Part shown: piece after piece, positions 1 through 41,090 of the stretch
Layout: every line of letters begins with the position of its first letter
How positions within the stretch are numbered: the stretch's first letter is position 1
Origin: Oscillospiraceae bacterium
Lineage (GTDB): Bacteria > Bacillota > Clostridia > Oscillospirales > WRJC01
Length of the DNA: 42,269 nt
Assembly: GCA_009777355.1 (NCBI GenBank)
Contig: WRMA01000007.1
Span: 1-42,269, forward strand
Reading direction: 5' to 3'
Program-made: the position numbers and the translations under genes
Notes under the pieces: model-generated
Told to the model about the DNA's origin: nothing
Database searches by the model: none
Seen by the model: only the letters and a program-made list of their open reading frames with translations

Positions 1-3000
1 ATCTTCCGGTCCATAACCGTACTCGCCGCTTAATTCTATCCTCTTCTTCTCTTCGTTTACCGCTCTCTCTAAAATCCTGACGTATAAATCATAGCCGACC
101 GCGTCCATTTGTCCGTGCTGCTGCGCTCCGAGTAAATTGCCCGCGCCCCTGATTTCTAAATCTCTCATCGCGATTTTGAACCCCGCGCCAAATTCTGTAT
201 ATTCGCGTATCGCCGTGAGTCTTTTCGTTGCGATTTCAGTTAGGACTTTATTTTTGGGATACGTAAAGTATGCGTAAGCGCGTCTGTTCGAACGTCCTAC
301 CCTGCCCCTTATTTGATGAAGCTGAGAAAGCCCCAGTCTGTCCGCGTCCTCTATTATCAGGGTGTTCGCGTCCGGTATATCTATCCCCGATTCTATAATC
401 GTCGTGCAAACTAATATATCTATTTCGCCCTCGAGCATACTTCGCCATACTTTCGATAAAGCTCCCTCGTCCATCTGTCCGTGGCCCACACCGATTTTTA
501 TGTCCTCTCCCAGAATCTCCCCGAGCCTGAACGCTTTCTGCTCTATCGTCTCGACCCTGTTGTGAAGATAAAAAACCTGTCCTCCCCGTCTTATTTCGTT
601 TCTGACTGCTTCCGCTATAATATTCTCGTCGTATTCGAATATATACGTCTGCACGGGAAGTCTGTCTCTCGGCGGTTCTTCTATTGCCGACATATCTCTT
701 ATACCCGATAAAGCCATGTTTAAAGTCCTGGGAATAGGCGTAGCGGTTAAAGTTAAAACGTCGATATTTTCGGCGAGCTGCTTTAATTTTTCTTTATGCG
801 CGACCCCGAATCTCTGTTCTTCGTCCACTACTAACAACCCCAGATTTTTAAACTTAATATCTTTCTGTATTATTCTGTGAGTGCCTATAATAATATCTAT
901 CTGACCCGTTCTTAATTTTTTGATAATCTCGTCCTGTTCTTTTTTTGACCTGAATCTCGACAGCATTTCTATTTTAACGGGAAATTCCCTGAATCTGGAT
1001 AAAATCGTCTGGTAATGCTGCCACGCCAAAATCGTCGTCGGAACTAAAATCGCCGCCTGCATAGACTCGGAAACGCACTTAAACACGGCTCTTAACGCGA
1101 CTTCTGTCTTGCCGAACCCTACGTCTCCGCATAATAACCTGTCCATAGGAACAGGATTCATCATGTCTTCTTTGATTTGTTCGGAACAGATTAATTGGTC
1201 GTCCGTTTCGGCATACTCAAATAAACTCTCGAAATCTTTCTGCCATTCTGTGTCTTCAGAAAAAGCGTGGCCTTTTTTCTGCTGTCTGGCGGCGTATAAT
1301 TTTATGAGCTCGCGGGCGATATCCCTCGCGGCGTATTTCGCCTTCGCCTTCGCTTTCGTCCAGCCCGAACCGCCCATTTTCGACAGCTTGACGCTTCCCT
1401 CTCCTCCGTCGCTGCCCGCGCCTATATATTTCGACACTAAATCGAGCTGACTGCACGGAACGTATAAAATATCCGTTCCAAGATAGGCGATTTTAATAAA
1501 ATCTTTCTGAACCCCCGAAACTTCGAGTCTTTCGACCGCGACGAATCTGCCGATGCCGTAATTATTATGCACGACGTAATCCCCCGGAGATAAATCGGTA
1601 TACGACATGAGCTTCTGTCTCGCGGTTTTAGCGTATTTACCCCCGGACTGCCGGACTATCCCCGATTCGCCCCGTCCCCGTCTCGCTCCGGCTCCGGCGG
1701 GCCTTTTGTCCGAACCCCCGTCCGTAATCAGCGCGAACTTCTGTCCGGGCAGTTCGAACCCCGGTATAGAAAATATTGCATTAGCCCCCTTCCGTGAAGG
1801 GGGTGGCAAAATGTCCGCAGACATTTTGACGGGGGTTGGCGTATTTTTTTGCAACCCCCGCCCTTCGGGCACCCCCTTCACAAGAAGGGGGCTTTCGTTA
1901 AGAGGGCGGCTTTTATTATTATCGCCGATTCTCGGGGTTTTTACGAGAGTGACTAACCCCTCGGGTATATCGTCTATATTATTACATTTGCCAAATTCCG
2001 GGAGAATATATTTAACCCCCGAATCCTCAAGATAATCGGCGAAGCTTTTTATTCCCGCGTCCGAATCGAGGAAAACCAGAGTCTTATATTGATTTTCGCA
2101 GTATTTGCTTAAATCGTCCTTTAAAATTTCGAAACCGTCTGAAAATCCCGCCGTCTGCCTTGAATTAAAAGAATAAATCCCCGATAATCTCATGTCCGAA
2201 CTGCTTTGCCCGCTTAAAAAATTATCGCATATCACAGTTTTAAATTTTAGTTTTTCAATGTGAAAATCCTCGAGCGTTACCGAACCCAGACTTAAATCAG
2301 AACCTGAATCCGGGTTTTTCTCCAGTAAATTAATAAGCGTCTCCTTCATGATTTCTTCAGCCGCTTTCTGACGTTCGTTTACTTTTACGGATTCGTTTAT
2401 AAACAAAATCGTCTTGTTTACGTCGAAATAATCGAGAAAGCATTGATTATTTTTGCTATTTTTATTTAATTGCCTCTCGCCCGCGGGAATTATGCCGAAC
2501 TCTTTTATATTTTCCGTTCTTCTCTGGGTCAACGGGTCGAAAATCCCCATAGAATCGATTTCGTCGCCGAAAAGCTCCAGCCTTACGGGTTTGTCTCCCG
2601 ACGGCGAAAATATATCTATTATGCCGCCCCTGACTGAAAATTTTCCCGTTTCTTCGACGATATCAACCCTTTCGTAACCCATCGAAGCGAGATTTTCAAG
2701 AAATTCACGCATATTTTCTATACTTCCGCCGAATTTCAAATCTATAAAAGACTCTATAAGCTCTTCAGCCGGCATAGTATACTGTAAAAGCGCGTCGAGA
2801 GTCGTTATGACGACGTCGAAATCCCCGTTTAAAACTTTGGCGAGGATTTTTATCCTCTCATGTTCGAACGGGCCTCCCGAAACCGGGGAAATTATATTAT
2901 TGTTATTTACTCCGGCTAAAATCTCGTCTTTTTTGGGATATATATAAACCCCGCCGAAAAAATTAAGCATAGAATCCCGAAGTTTAACCGACGTTTTTTC

Positions 3001-3201
3001 GTCCGGAGAAACAATCAGGGCTTTTTCTCCCGCGTCGACGCATAAAGCCGCCGCGAAAGTCTCCATACTTCCCGTACTCAACCCCGCCGCCGCTATGGGA
3101 AAGCGCCGCTTCGCGTTTTTTAACTTAGCCAGCTCATAAACGAGATTTTTGTATTCGCCGCTGTTTTTAAACGCGGATAATATTAAATCCGTGAAAATCA
3201 A
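1..3201 (-). CDS. mfd: Transcription-repair coupling factor Mfd (3' end cut by window edge)
   Basis: ATP-dependent translocase that removes RNA polymerase stalled at DNA lesions and recruits UvrA for nucleotide excision repair. About 1067 codons are present with no stop; the family is usually 1150-1180 residues, so only the C-terminal tail is missing. In order: UvrB-like N-terminal module, a polymerase-interacting segment around residue 540 (VVHNNYGIGRF), helicase Walker A GDVGFGKT near residue 691, DEEQ box near 788 and the TATPIPRTL motif. The TTG start at 3201 touches an AGGGGG ribosome binding site with no spacer, so the true start may be a few codons further in (ATT at 3198 or ACG at 3192). 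A palindromic repeat adds about residues 437-473 in frame. Confidence 0.95.
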   Translation of the reverse strand, partial: MIFTDLILSAFKNSGEYKNLVYELAKLKNAKRRFPIAAAGLSTGSMETFAAALCVDAGEKALIVSPDEKTSVKLRDSMLNFFGGVYIYPKKDEILAGVNNNNIISPVSGGPFEHERIKILAKVLNGDFDVVITTLDALLQYTMPAEELIESFIDLKFGGSIENMREFLENLASMGYERVDIVEETGKFSVRGGIIDIFSPSGDKPVRLELFGDEIDSMGIFDPLTQRRTENIKEFGIIPAGERQLNKNSKNNQCFLDYFDVNKTILFINESVKVNERQKAAEEIMKETLINLLEKNPDSGSDLSLGSVTLEDFHIEKLKFKTVICDNFLSGQSSSDMRLSGIYSFNSRQTAGFSDGFEILKDDLSKYCENQYKTLVFLDSDAGIKSFADYLEDSGVKYILPEFGKCNNIDDIPEGLVTLVKTPRIGDNNKSRPLNESPLLVKGVPEGRGLQKNTPTPVKMSADILPPPSRKGANAIFSIPGFELPGQKFALITDGGSDKRPAGAGARRGRGESGIVRQSGGKYAKTARQKLMSYTDLSPGDYVVHNNYGIGRFVAVERLEVSGVQKDFIKIAYLGTDILYVPCSQLDLVSKYIGAGSDGGEGSVKLSKMGGSGWTKAKAKAKYAARDIARELIKLYAARQQKKGHAFSEDTEWQKDFESLFEYAETDDQLICSEQIKEDMMNPVPMDRLLCGDVGFGKTEVALRAVFKCVSESMQAAILVPTTILAWQHYQTILSRFREFPVKIEMLSRFRSKKEQDEIIKKLRTGQIDIIIGTHRIIQKDIKFKNLGLLVVDEEQRFGVAHKEKLKQLAENIDVLTLTATPIPRTLNMALSGIRDMSAIEEPPRDRLPVQTYIFEYDENIIAEAVRNEIRRGGQVFYLHNRVETIEQKAFRLGEILGEDIKIGVGHGQMDEGALSKVWRSMLEGEIDILVCTTIIESGIDIPDANTLIIEDADRLGLSQLHQIRGRVGRSNRRAYAYFTYPKNKVLTEIATKRLTAIREYTEFGAGFKIAMRDLEIRGAGNLLGAQQHGQMDAVGYDLYVRILERAVNEEKKRIELSGEYGYGPED
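1783..1893. repeat. 111-bp palindromic element inserted in frame inside mfd
   Basis: The ends are inverted repeats (AGCCCCCTTC / GAAGGGGGCT). Inside are smaller palindromes: AAAATGTC / GACATTTTG, AACCCCC / GGGGGTT and CCCTTCGGG. Its length is exactly 37 codons, and the mfd frame reads through without a stop, adding a Pro/Gly/Lys-rich stretch just before the conserved GFELPGQKFALITD segment. It resembles in style the G/C-rich nested-hairpin elements at 32952 and 38262, and in concept the Rickettsia palindromic elements that add peptides to proteins. The exact boundaries are judged from the inverted repeat. Confidence 0.75.
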
Positions 3202-3250
3202 CCCCCTGTGTTTTTTTTTATATATAAATTGCAATAAAACAAATCGTTGT

Positions 3251-3327
3251 GTAGGGAACGCATTTATGCGTTCCGAAAAAACATGAAATCACGCGCAATT
3301 CGCGGAACGGATAAATCCGTTCCCTAC
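3251..3327. repeat. Nested palindromic repeat, GTAGGG...CCCTAC family, copy A
   Basis: It lies in the 152-base gap between mfd and rlmH. Both arms of the outer inverted repeat (GTAGGGAACG ... CGTTCCCTAC) are themselves palindromes: GGAACGCAT-TT-ATGCGTTCC on the left and GGAACGGAT-AA-ATCCGTTCC on the right. The right flank (AATTTATGCCGTT) is shared with the copy at 41023. Confidence 0.8.
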
Positions 3328-3353
3328 AATTTATGCCGTTCTGCGATATATTT

Positions 3354-9485: not shown

Positions 9486-9562
9486 GACGGCGTAAAAAAT
9501 TTTACATTGCGAAGGCATAAAAAATATTCGCTGCAAATTTATATAATTATTGGGAATTTCAG

Positions 9563-9591
9563 TTGACAAAAGCTTTTTGCTGTGGTATAAT
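9563..9591 (+). promoter_or_regulatory. Promoter of antisense antitoxin RNA, copy 1
   Basis: Consensus TTGACA, 17-base spacer, consensus TATAAT on the plus strand. It drives transcription toward and into the 3' end of the small toxin gene at 9659-9754. Confidence 0.85.
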
Positions 9592-9597
9592 AAAATA

Positions 9598-9679
9598 AAG
9601 GCGTCGCCGGTAAACGGTTCAGCCTAATGATTTAGAAAAACAATCGCTCTCCTCTCAATTAGGGGCGGTTGTTTTTTCT
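9598..9679 (+). ncRNA. Antisense RNA antitoxin of a type I toxin-antitoxin system, copy 1
   Basis: A predicted transcript of about 80 nt from the promoter at 9563-9591 to the intrinsic terminator at 9638-9678. It is complementary to the last codons, stop and 3' tail of the toxin on the other strand, as in TxpA/RatA- and Fst-like systems. It begins with GGCGTCGCC and ACGGTTCAGCC, which also appear in slightly changed form (GGCGTTGCC ... GCGGTTCGGCC) near the 5' end of the toxin mRNA. No ORF of note lies within it. Confidence 0.75.
9638..9678. terminator. Bidirectional intrinsic terminator shared by toxin mRNA and antitoxin RNA
   Basis: AACAATCGCTC pairs with GGGGCGGTTGTT (with G-U pairs), and T-runs follow on both strands (GTTTTTTC on plus, GTTTTTC on minus). 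One arm is made of the toxin's last codons. Confidence 0.8.
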
Positions 9680-9886: not shown

Positions 9887-9909
9887 GGGTTTTCTCGCAA
9901 AAAAAAGTG

Positions 9910-9938
9910 TTGACAAAAGCTTTTTTACATGATATAAT
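9910..9938 (+). promoter_or_regulatory. Promoter of antisense antitoxin RNA, copy 2
   Basis: TTGACA, 17-base spacer, TATAAT. The -35 region and flank (TTGACAAAAGCTTTTT) match copy 1 almost exactly, showing a duplication. Confidence 0.85.
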
Positions 9939-9944
9939 AGAACA

Positions 9945-10027
9945 AAGGAGTTGCCGGTAAACGGTTCAGCCTAATATATCAGAAAAACAATCGCTCTCCT
10001 GGTTGATTAGGGGCGGTTGTTTTTTCT
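9945..10027 (+). ncRNA. Antitoxin RNA copy 2, without an intact toxin of its own
   Basis: A near-copy of the RNA at 9598-9679: shared GCCGGTAAACGGTTCAGCC and AGAAAAACAATCGCTCTCCT, and the same terminator ending ATTAGGGGCGGTTGTTTTTT. The complementary strand keeps only the toxin's last eleven codons. It could act in trans on the intact toxin mRNA, because the terminator arm that pairs with it is unchanged. Confidence 0.7.
9984..10027. terminator. Intrinsic terminator of antitoxin RNA copy 2
   Basis: Same stem as copy 1 (AACAATCGCTC / GGGGCGGTTGTT) with T-runs on both sides; only the loop differs. Confidence 0.75.
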
Positions 10028-25589: not shown

Positions 25590-25614
25590 TATAATACCAA
25601 TATGCAATTAAAAT

Positions 25615-25693
25615 GTAGGGGCGGCCATTGGCCGTCCGTCTGAAAAACGTCAAAACTGCGTTGGTTTTGCGGACGCGCAATGCGCGCCCCTAC
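25615..25693. repeat. Nested palindromic repeat, GTAGGG...CCCTAC family, copy B
   Basis: 79 bp between trmFO and plsX. Left arm holds GGCCATTGGCC, right arm GCGCAATGCGC, each self-complementary. The same length and nearly the same sequence recur at 39948-40026. Confidence 0.85.
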
Positions 25694-25777
25694 AATCAGG
25701 ATTTTAATTTCGCAAGAAGTCTATTGAATAAATACCAGAAAAAATCAAAATGCGAAAGGGCAGAGTATATTAAAATT

Positions 25778-28309: not shown

Positions 28310-29344
28310 ATGAGAAAGCATTATAATATACCCGTCTTTATCACCCATTCGGGCTGCAGAAATAACTGCGTTTTCTGCAACCAGAAAATCATAACGGGGC
28401 AGTCCGGAAGCGCGGACGAGGAAAAAATAAAACGGACAATCGAAAAATTTACAGATATTATTTATAGAAATAATCAGGATAATCGCGCCGGCGCTGAAAT
28501 CGCTTTTTTCGGGGGTTCTTTTACCGGGCTTGAAAAAAGCGAGATGATTAGATATTTAGAAATCGCGAACAGATATATAGATAAATATAAAATCATAACG
28601 GGCGTACGCCTTTCAACGAGACCGGATTATATTACCAAGGAAATAATTGATATTTTATTGAAATATAATACAAAGGCAATCGAACTGGGAATCCAGAGTA
28701 TGTTCGACGAGGTTTTGTCCGCGTGCAAAAGAGGGCATACGTCAAAAGACAGTAAGAACGCTTGCGGGATAATAAAAGACGCGGGGATAAATCTAACCGG
28801 GCAAATCATGCTCGGACTTCCGGGTTCGAACCGGGAAAAAGATATAGAGACGGCGGAGATTCTCGTGAAACTGGGGATAGATTCCGCGAGGATATACCCG
28901 GCGGCGGTTCTTGAAGACACCGAACTCTGCGAGTTGTACAGAAACGGGAGATACGAGCCTTTGAGTCTCGATGAGGCTGTGTTCAGGGCGAAAGAAATAA
29001 AGAAAATCTTTGACTATAATAATATAAAAGTTATTAGAATGGGTTTATGTTCGTCGGATATAGATATAAATGATAGTAATATTATCGCGGGGGTTTATCA
29101 CCCCGCGTTCGGGGAGCTTGTCGAAAGCGAGATTATATACGACAGACTTGCTGAAGAGACAGAAAAAATTTGCAGGGGCGCGCATTGCGCGTCCGGCGGT
29201 GTTATTATTCGCATGAACGATGATAGTCTTGTTATATACGCGGACAAGAAAGATATGTCAAAGACGGTCGGGCATAAGAGAAGAAACATAGAGAGACTAA
29301 AAGAAAAGTTTAATTTAAGAGAAATAATAGTAACGGAGAAATAA
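28310..29344 (+). CDS. Radical SAM protein, Elp3-like
   Basis: A 344-residue radical SAM enzyme with the cluster motif CRNNCVFCN (CxxxCxxC, residues 16-24), FFGGSFTGL as the SAM-binding glycine motif, and IQSMFDEVLSACKRGHT. It resembles the Elp3-like, coproporphyrinogen-oxidase-like proteins that often lie between rnc and smc in Clostridia; substrate unknown. In the C-terminal third a 24-bp half of a palindromic repeat is read in frame as CRGAHCASG. It ends 3 bases before smc. Confidence 0.88.
   Translation: MRKHYNIPVFITHSGCRNNCVFCNQKIITGQSGSADEEKIKRTIEKFTDIIYRNNQDNRAGAEIAFFGGSFTGLEKSEMIRYLEIANRYIDKYKIITGVRLSTRPDYITKEIIDILLKYNTKAIELGIQSMFDEVLSACKRGHTSKDSKNACGIIKDAGINLTGQIMLGLPGSNREKDIETAEILVKLGIDSARIYPAAVLEDTELCELYRNGRYEPLSLDEAVFRAKEIKKIFDYNNIKVIRMGLCSSDIDINDSNIIAGVYHPAFGELVESEIIYDRLAEETEKICRGAHCASGGVIIRMNDDSLVIYADKKDMSKTVGHKRRNIERLKEKFNLREIIVTEK
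29172..29195. repeat. Half-element of the GTAGGG...CCCTAC repeat inside the radical SAM gene
   Basis: GCAGGGGCGCGCATTGCGCG followed by TCCG matches the right arm of copies B and D (reverse complement) at 23 of 24 positions. It is read in frame. Confidence 0.7.
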
Positions 29345-32300: not shown

Positions 32301-32947
32301 CGAAGATAAAATCCGGGATAAAAGAACTCGGAACGGTAAACGTAAACGCGGTCGAAGAGTTTAAAGAAGTAAGCCGGAAATATGATTTTTTATCGGGGCA
32401 GTCGTCCGATTTGAGGGATTCTATAGAGAGTTTGCAGAAGATTATAGATAATCTCGAAACTGAAATGAAAAAAGTGTTCTCCGAATCCATGAATCAGATA
32501 AATCAGAACTTCGGGGAAGTTTTCTCGGAGCTTTTCGGCGGGGGAACGGCGGGGATAATATATACCGACCCGGACAACGTCCTGGAGAGCGAACTCGAAA
32601 TCGAAGTCAGACCTCCGGGGAAAAATATCAAGCATATATCGCTGCTGTCCGGAGGGGAGCAGACGTTCGTCGCAATCGCGCTTTATTTCGCGCTGCTGAA
32701 AATCAACCCCGCGCCCTTCTGCGTCCTCGACGAAATCGAGTCGGCCCTGGACGAAGTGAACGTCGACAGATTCGCGGGATATCTGAAAAGATACGCCTCG
32801 CAGACGCAGTTTATACTGATTTCCCACAGACGGGGAACGATGGAAGCGGCAAACAGGCTTTACGGGATAACGATGCAGGACAAAGGCGTGTCGAAATATC
32901 TGGCTCTGGACATAAACGAAGCGGAGAAGAGACTCGGGAAGATATAA
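29348..32947 (+). CDS. smc: Chromosome partition protein SMC
   Basis: ATPase that loads with ScpAB onto DNA and drives loop extrusion for chromosome condensation and segregation. The 1199-residue length is typical. Walker A GPNGSGKSN lies near residues 32-40, a hinge with GYPDSVKSVIKRGLKGVNGT and later GGSFTGGS near 505-670, two long coiled coils either side, signature LSGGEQTF near 1099 and Walker B VLDEIESALDEVNV. GTG start at 29348, three bases after the radical SAM gene. It is followed by a 157-bp palindromic repeat and ftsY. Confidence 0.97.
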   Translation: MFLKTVELTGFKSFPSKTSITFERGITAIIGPNGSGKSNISDAIRWVFGETSSKAMRGSKMEDVIFGGTKEVRPSSFARVSLVIDNSDNLVDCDFSEIKITRQLARSGESGYFINDRSVRLKDIYELFLNTGVGREGYSIIGQGKIAELISRRSEDRRGIFEEASGISKYRYKKSEAEKKLSNVEDNLTRIKDIVYGLGERLETLGPEAEKAKKYIELYERKKSLEIYTWVDSAEKIKREFEKLISGCEISKFNYENADSEFIRLNEKTDNLYNKIQEINLLYENRKNENHRIANNIVTKNSDIEILKNNISKIRDNIEFNLYEFNRNKSDIEILDRDIADKTIIIDRISSEYKSLELEIEDIVNYSEHIEFKLLEINNKIEEINNILSEINTEINELKIKISEKNSEIRHISERKEILSREIGKIGDIREKNKKELGILNSLKKSALTEKEKSELKLAETENKIKDLVNSEKSKRKELDSLYLKSERNENTIQTLTHIYENLEGYPDSVKSVIKRGLKGVNGTIAQLIETDEKYSEAIEVALGQNLQNIIVDDENSAKEAIRYLKTNNLGRATFYPRNIIKGRFIEREKLDYLCRNNKASGFIDAGSELVSCEQKYINIIKYLLGRTIICDNINNAAKIAERLNYMYKIVTLDGQVINAGGSFTGGSTARKSSMLSNKNKIENLKNQNIEHAKNQKEISGQIEKIAGYINRLNKEYDLQKEELNSKILDLYNLDSDIKLKISEVELGESQINSAENEIRENAGNLVRETKKELEGKLSEYGRKFGENTRILDELKNQAKKTSGEKDAVLIKINEQRLVLSGVLNNINIETERLENLNRERVNLKNKNARLSDDNKEKNSELISGENKIEAEKKEIEELTKTAGRIALELLEYEKGRTNLEKENAETKNNIKDKAAERDALFREHTRLESMRSEKEKEHDSIINKLWEEYNLTFSDAKEMVLTSLETSQITVITENPGNIAKELSKIKSGIKELGTVNVNAVEEFKEVSRKYDFLSGQSSDLRDSIESLQKIIDNLETEMKKVFSESMNQINQNFGEVFSELFGGGTAGIIYTDPDNVLESELEIEVRPPGKNIKHISLLSGGEQTFVAIALYFALLKINPAPFCVLDEIESALDEVNVDRFAGYLKRYASQTQFILISHRRGTMEAANRLYGITMQDKGVSKYLALDINEAEKRLGKI

Positions 32948-32951
32948 TATA

Positions 32952-33108
32952 CCTCTTTCAAAACCGAAATACGACCACCCCGCCGACTTCGTCGGCACCC
33001 CTCCACGGAGGGGAATTAATAAAACGGCGGAGTTGAGTGAAAATTCCCCTCCGTGGAGGGGTGGCGCGGCGCGTAAGCGGCGTGACGGGGTGGTTTTGAA
33101 AGAAGTCC
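32952..33108. repeat. 157-bp nested-hairpin MITE-like repeat, copy 1 (smc-ftsY gap)
   Basis: Outer inverted repeat CTTTCAAAACC / GGTTTTGAAAG, then CCACCCCG / CGGGGTGG, and inner CCCCTCCACGGAGGGG / CCCCTCCGTGGAGGGG palindromes. It is over 80 percent alike by eye to the copy at 38262. It ends 28 bases before the ftsY start and holds no ORF of note. Confidence 0.9.
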
Positions 33109-33136
33109 AATAAAAAAATAAAATCGGGGAGAATAT

Positions 33137-38241: not shown

Positions 38242-38261
38242 AAGATAGATTTGTAAAATAG

Positions 38262-38423
38262 ACCTCTTTCGAAACCGAAATACGACCACCCCGCCGTCTG
38301 CGGACGGCACCCCTCCACAGAGGGGAATGAGTAAGAAAACGCCGGAGCAGAGTGAAAATTCCCCTCTGTGGAGGGGTGGCGCGACGCGTAAGCGGCGTGA
38401 CGGGGTGGTTTTGAAAGAAGTCC
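38262..38423. repeat. 162-bp nested-hairpin MITE-like repeat, copy 2 (LCP-rsfS gap)
   Basis: The same layout as the copy at 32952. Changes come in pairs that keep pairing: CCACAGAGG / CCTCTGTGG replaces CCACGGAGG / CCTCCGTGG, and GCCGTC-TGCG-GACGGC replaces GCCGAC-TTC-GTCGGC. It ends about 43 bases before the rsfS ATG. Confidence 0.9.
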
Positions 38424-38465
38424 AATATTTAAATAAAATAAAAAAATAAAACGGAAAGGAATTTT

Positions 38466-39932: not shown

Positions 39933-39947
39933 GCTTATAAACAAATT

Positions 39948-40026
39948 GTAGGGGCGGCCATTGGCCGTCCGTCTGAAAAATGTCAAAATCACATTGATTT
40001 TGCGGACGCGCAATGCGCGCCCCTAC
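39948..40026. repeat. Nested palindromic repeat, GTAGGG...CCCTAC family, copy D
   Basis: 79 bp, a close copy of copy B with nearly all differences confined to the central spacer; both palindromic arms are identical to those of B. Confidence 0.85.
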
Positions 40027-40054
40027 GATTAAATTTTGAGGTTTATTTATATCT

Positions 40055-41022: not shown

Positions 41023-41090
41023 GTAGGGACGAACTGTGTTCGTCCGCCGATACCGCGCAAATCCCGCGGACGAACACAGTTCGTCCCTAC
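41023..41090. repeat. Nested palindromic repeat, GTAGGG...CCCTAC family, copy E
   Basis: The arms are a perfect 24-bp inverted repeat, each also palindromic inside (GGACGAAC-ACA-GTTCGTCC). An outer pair AACGGCA / TGCCGTT extends it to about 41016-41103. The right flank matches copy A. Confidence 0.85.

Follow-up and report, generated by a model that had tools for sequence, protein, structure and literature searches.

A palindromic doublet inserted in frame in mfd of an Oscillospiraceae bacterium shares its layout with the flanks of DUF559 nuclease genes

The window analyzed here, a 42,269-nucleotide stretch of an Oscillospiraceae genome (contig WRMA01000007.1), opens with mfd, the gene of the transcription-repair coupling factor (Table 1). 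We identified within this gene a palindromic element of exactly 111 bp with AGCCCCCTTC and GAAGGGGGCT ends, free of stops in the minus-strand mfd frame, whose 37 codons encode SPLLVKGVPEGRGLQKNTPTPVKMSADILPPPSRKGA. A first-pass annotation of the same DNA had described the length, the palindromic ends and the open frame, and the sequence and its translation bear out all three. It had also placed the segment at residues 437-473; this length holds but the numbering, which implies a later start, does not, and counting from the TTG at 3234 gives residues 448-484. The insert lies, as had been claimed, between the UvrB-related and polymerase-interacting modules, after the UvrB-interaction domain (166-252) and before the CarD/RID domain (548-604). 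The gene is otherwise intact as far as the contig end, and the protein scores above its NCBIfam cut-off despite the insert and the C-terminus lost there. No NCBIfam or Pfam model matched the insert peptide; its usefulness to Mfd remains unproven, and we claim no benefit. The predicted RNA fold of the element reaches -74 kcal/mol on either strand (z = -8.3 and -10.5), and none of 200 shuffles was equally stable. Together with the 42 pieces, many of 40-46 bp, that a BLAST search with the element retrieved from its own genome, these values argue against a chance palindrome.

Table 1. Positions in the window of mfd, its palindromic insert and the C4-family doublets.
Feature	Position	Strand	Remarks
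mfd (transcription-repair coupling factor), host gene	1..3234	-	C-terminus cut by contig end
Complete 111-bp palindromic doublet, C5 family, in frame in mfd	1783..1893	.	Sequence, BLAST, fold, Mfd alignment
Half-unit 1, 56 nt	1783..1838	+	Hairpin 1, TG, hairpin 2, tail
Half-unit 1 hairpin 1, CCCCCTTC-cgt-GAAGGGGG	1785-1803		Then TG
Half-unit 1 hairpin 2, CAAAATGTC-cgca-GACATTTTG	1807-1828		
Half-unit 1 tail, GGGGGTTG	1831-1838		
Spacer of mfd element, 13 bp	1839..1851	.	DUF559 gene in its place in related cassettes
Half-unit 2, 42 nt, inverted	1852..1893	-	Hairpin 1, TG, hairpin 2, tail
Half-unit 2 hairpin 1	1872-1891		Then TG
Half-unit 2 hairpin 2, CCC-gaa-GGG	1861-1869		
Half-unit 2 tail	1852-1859		
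C4-family (CCCCTCC..GGAGGGG) doublet between smc and ftsY	32943..33124	.	Half-units 32977-33013 (-), 33046-33094 (+)
Second C4-family doublet	38254..38439	.	Half-units 38285-38325 (-), 38361-38409 (+)

The element is palindromic, as first described, but it is not one simple palindrome: two inverted half-units surround a short spacer, and each is built, in order, of hairpin 1 (CCCCCTTC-loop-GAAGGGGG), TG, a variable hairpin 2 and a G-run tail (GGGGGTTG). Hairpin 2 changes in sequence and length among copies (CCCGAAGGG, GTCGCGAAGCGAC, CCGTCCGCAGACGG and others) yet stays palindromic and is therefore kept as a structure. Full copies of this family, which we call C5, end AAA/GCCCCC…GGGGGC/TTT and have a spacer of ~30 bp (13 bp in mfd). 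Two sister families with the same layout and shorter C-runs, C4 (CCCCTCC..GGAGGGG) and C3 (CCCTCTTT..AAAGAGGG), share the genome. C5 copies adjoin or sit between C3-type half-units in nested or composite arrangements (L002, L003, L004 and L016; contigs C140, C25 and C53), and the C3 and C4 elements have common outer ends like AGACTTCTTGCATAACT / AGACCTCTTTCAAAACC, which suggests an additional transposon-like carrier. The window also holds other repeats. Intergenic inverted repeats at 3250-3328 and 41023-41090 start TGTAGGG or GTAGGG and have arms of 26 and 25 nt that are 92-100% complementary. Two 92-bp copies, 86% identical and ~350 bp apart (9562-9653 and 9909-10000), are each followed by a common 49-bp repeat in a region without annotated long genes, and are possibly duplicated small-RNA or promoter units.

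The first-pass annotation had predicted a clean gap of 37 residues in Mfd of close relatives. The gap is present in a same-genus Mfd (…DDPGAPQN-LFDMQGFELP versus …PLNE[insert]NAIFSIPGFELP in the protein alignment), although the net difference in this poorly conserved linker is ~40 residues and not exactly 37. An exact DNA empty site is lacking for mfd, and no target-site duplication is evident at the insert. The two outcomes named beforehand as refuting, a conserved segment in relatives and an element unique in the genome, did not occur. It is hardly credible that the segment never moved and is a native linker or a local low-complexity expansion of Mfd: the site is indeed a variable linker between domains, but a near-identical element recurs elsewhere in the genome, which already contradicts such an origin, the congener has an empty site, and the two-arm design is structured and asymmetrical.

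Repetition of the element within genes was observed directly. Besides mfd, about nine conserved genes of this genome (91% complete; all genomes used are drafts and most probably metagenome-assembled) carry C5 half-units or doublets in frame, among them tsaD (two), dnaX (two), cysS, ispE, tmcAL, 1-phosphofructokinase, an ECF-type ATPase gene and one additional gene. Relatives have empty sites at both positions in tsaD and in tmcAL and ispE, and at the cysS, dnaX and 1-phosphofructokinase positions the congener G001 carries an insert that is larger. TsaD scores above its family cut-off despite two inserts. Four further full copies span 115-122 bp, three of them without a spanning reading frame, and 12 of 21 sampled C5 sites in G001 were in frame in open reading frames (ORFs). 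In dnaX (L006, contig C107), an extra NRGNNSENGGDRGSNRENSGSGERG repeat-like linker separates the two half-units, as if the insert region had expanded further. The very stable mRNA hairpin leaves room for an effect at the level of RNA or translation, in which the element would be excised or processed, or the ribosome would bypass it, and no 37-residue segment would be made. We regard this as highly improbable given a length that is a multiple of three, an open frame, in-frame insertions of differing lengths and in several reading frames in other genes, and the absence of any Rfam match at the gathering threshold in a scan of the window.

How such insertions remain translatable can be judged from their stops. 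The C5 half-units leave four to six of the six frames open, and C3 units are richer in stops (mean 3.7); hairpins fell within ORFs in 13 of 17 cases for C5 versus 3 of 52 for C3. Openness is largely a matter of base composition, since shuffled half-units averaged 4.5 open frames and three of six are open in the mfd doublet itself. C4 copies inside ORFs were not counted, since several of the ORFs concerned appear spurious. The pattern is consistent with a simple filter that lets insertions persist wherever frame and stops allow. Gene-less doublets in other families of the order are mostly intergenic, and the flanks of ~19 doublets, judged by eye, had no obvious target-site duplication.

The description of the insert as a palindromic element proved incomplete, as the evidence supports a doublet of REP-like half-units whose relatives flank genes for DUF559 nucleases, which makes DUF559 a candidate mobilizer. 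The domain is present in 89 of 295 genomes of the order. Both DUF559 genes of the genome under study lie beside half-units, with C4-type arms on contig 9 and C3-type arms on contig 123. Scoring the best inverted repeat between two 500-bp flanks, we obtained a median of 19.5 at 39 DUF559 genes versus 10.0 in 357 local control windows from the same stretches (p = 1.6e-13). Scores of at least 15 were reached at 27 of the 39 genes and at none of 29 HNH nuclease genes (p = 6e-10), which establishes a specific association; some 30% of the DUF559 genes tested had no clear flanking pair. The flanks contain hairpin 1 (e.g., CTCCCTTGTGTAAAGGGAG) outermost, then TG, a variable palindrome and a tail (e.g., GGAGGGATTGT), and the mfd element matches this cassette layout (inverted hairpin 1, TG, hairpin 2 and purine tail, with hairpin 1 outermost). 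C3-type cassettes have the opposite orientation. Comparable flanks were also seen in Gammaproteobacteria, Hydrogenophilales, Endomicrobium and a Moranbacterium, although not at every DUF559 gene tested there.

Nuclease and arms also covary. For cross-family pairs only, DUF559 protein distance correlated with hairpin-1 distance (Mantel r = 0.718, permutation p at most 2e-4; hairpin-1 strings chosen by eye), and the nearest DUF559 neighbor in another family had the same hairpin type in 29 of 38 cases versus 6.1 expected. Genomes with the CTCCCTTGTGTAAAGGGAG palindrome encoded DUF559 more often (36/56) than those without it (39/239; p = 4e-12), and DUF559 was present in 20 of the 24 genomes with five or more copies. 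Among the matches listed, inverted CTCCCTTGTGTAAAGGGAG pairs fell into 13 spaced 100-134 bp apart without a gene and seven spaced 393-427 bp apart, six of which hold DUF559. The seventh (L316) was rejected as a cassette, being two adjacent doublets. No gene other than DUF559 was found inside the palindrome pairs examined. The cassette ATG lies 0-7 nt past the tail in about half of the cassettes and the stop codon falls within the opposite arm in 16 of 30, including the C4 cassette on contig 9, whose nuclease ends in the arm-encoded …HPALRAPLHGGE. Thus, the nuclease gene and its arms act like a single unit. Neither this genome, at its 91% completeness, nor G001 yielded a DUF559 cassette with the exact C5 arms of mfd; the nearest approaches are L168, a C5-like cassette in another family, and L323, a cassette of G001 with the variant C5b.

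We also observed whole cassettes in frame in host genes. In G001, an entire DUF559 cassette with C5-like arms lies in frame in a gene for an FAD oxidoreductase (L323, G001:C3), which is 583 aa long compared to about 440 aa in the genome under study and in G002. At the same site G002 has a single in-frame half-unit (L327, C228) and the genome under study a different palindrome (L328, C102), and nothing is inserted in three outgroups. This linker of the three congeners is an insertion hotspot and, as the cassette of G001 and the half-unit of G002 demonstrate, both forms can occupy the same in-frame site. A second in-frame cassette, with C4-like arms, was found in another family in a DNA methylase gene similar to type III modification genes (L150, G010:C2).

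DUF559 is a nuclease of the PD-(D/E)XK/Vsr type (YcjD, a DUF559 protein, detects Vsr; PMC1189080), and the DUF559 profile matched PDB 3hrl (E = 1.7e-25) and the homing endonuclease I-Bth0305I (PDB 3r3p; E = 1.2e-4). By sequence, cassette DUF559 belongs to the same superfamily as the EDxHD enzyme I-Bth0305I, Vsr and YcjD (PMC3943268; PMC1189080) but differs in lying outside any intron or intein, between palindromic arms, and in being translated within a host protein in two cases. The literature that we searched, with incomplete coverage, contained no link between DUF559, YcjD or COG2852 and palindromic repeats, which is weak evidence. The main rival to a mobilizing role is that DUF559 is a guest, a homing-type gene that invaded the spacer of pre-existing doublets spread by something else. 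Homing endonucleases typically invade existing elements. The kinship with I-Bth0305I, the mere half-unit of G002 where G001 holds a cassette and the excess of gene-less over gene-carrying CTCCCTTGTGTAAAGGGAG pairs (among the matches listed) would all suit a guest, and this origin, though unlikely, deserves to be kept in mind. It does not readily accommodate a start codon that abuts one arm and a stop often in the other, the covariation of arm type with nuclease sequence across families, the prevalence of DUF559 in palindrome-rich genomes (20 of 24 with at least five copies) or the lack of any other gene inside the pairs examined.

A different source of mobility would be expected if the elements belonged to a conventional REP/BIME family and a REP-associated Y1 (HUH) transposase moved them. 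The mfd-type elements do meet one criterion of REP/RAYT systems, the inverted unit pairs of BIMEs and REPINs, and resemble the REPtrons of RAYT (TnpA-REP) in having units that occur singly or in inverted pairs, a small nuclease gene between cognate palindromes and covariation of the two (PMC3733652; PMC8266576). The half-unit alignment, however, lacks the GTAG or CGTC tag at the foot of the palindrome, and no adjacent Y1 gene flanked by the same palindromes was found. The only Y1_Tnp (RAYT-like) gene in the genome, a weak match (L062 1501-1908, contig C57), is tied to a different palindrome, GTAGGGGCG, and its own reading frame includes GTAGGGGCGCGC palindromes. RAYT was therefore rejected as the mobilizer, and without tag or Y1 transposase we did not file the elements under REP/RAYT; C5-type architecture flanks DUF559 genes of the PD-(D/E)XK/Vsr-like fold instead, and has two hairpins and a G-run tail per unit that in this genus often lies within genes. 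Overall we judge mobilization by a Y1 transposase very unlikely. Members of the GTAGGGGCG family are interspersed in the window at 25610-25696, 29170-29195 and 39943-40029. The mfd element also shares with MITEs its terminal inverted repeats and its lack of a gene and, as with MITEs (in-frame ones such as Coxiella QMITE1 among them; PMC5896051), may derive, with no gene of its own, from a larger element that has inverted ends. The related gene-carrying element, however, encodes DUF559 rather than a DDE transposase, and no target-site duplication was seen.

We consider it probable that the mfd insert is a gene-less, non-autonomous copy of a DUF559-carrying mobile palindromic element, its movement and the role of DUF559 being inferred. 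In the autonomous form, the gene for the small Vsr/EDxHD-like nuclease would replace the spacer between the inverted half-units, and its product would recognize the arms of its own element type and cut or nick DNA. Copying to new sites could then involve cassettes with the gene, doublets without it and perhaps single half-units, with doublets such as that of mfd driven in trans. The arms are G/C-rich and stop-poor and the nuclease gene reads into an arm in many cassettes, so a copy that landed in a gene would often stay translatable, and selection would retain only in-frame, tolerated insertions such as that in the Mfd linker. The mobilizer, the chemistry and the copying route are all inferences; no excision, target-site duplication or activity was seen, and no movement, binding or cutting was observed. 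The missing cassette with exact C5 arms, the DUF559 genes that have no clear flanking pair and the mostly intergenic doublets of other families also count against this explanation.

The first-pass annotation had drawn a parallel with the Rickettsia palindromic elements (RPE; Ogata et al., 2000, 2002, as described in PMC10969869 and PMC3733652). The likeness in behavior stands, as both are palindromic repeats of ~100-150 bp, translated in frame as part of numerous unrelated conserved genes and present in other copies in intergenic DNA, and the RPE criterion of a palindromic repeat in frame in several unrelated genes is met. Membership of that family is not evidenced and remains undecided, RPE sequences not having been compared. 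The mfd-type elements differ in coming from an unrelated lineage (a Clostridia-like order), in a peptide unmatched in Pfam/NCBIfam and in the two-hairpin half-units that they have in common with DUF559 cassettes. They are best treated, by analogy, as comparable to both RPE and REP/RAYT without being assigned to either.

Discussion of in-frame protein-coding palindromes has so far centered on Rickettsia; to our knowledge, their source of mobility has not been identified, and no mobilizer of RPE is known to us. Here, about ten conserved genes of an unrelated lineage show the same behavior, and there is a concrete and testable candidate for the engine: a widespread, uncharacterized nuclease whose gene lies between palindromes of the same kind and covaries with them. 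We lean, if only slightly, toward the broader proposition that DUF559 proteins, Vsr-like, present in many phyla and hitherto without a role, mobilize a large class of REP-like palindromes as cassettes, doublets and half-units, creating protein segments in frame and even nuclease-host fusions. For annotation, Pro/Gly/Lys-rich inserts in bacterial proteins, such as PPSxKGVPEGRG, may be mobile-element sequence. If correct, the proposed explanation would give DUF559 a function, define an element class parallel to REP/RAYT and offer one way in which repeats give rise to new protein sequence.
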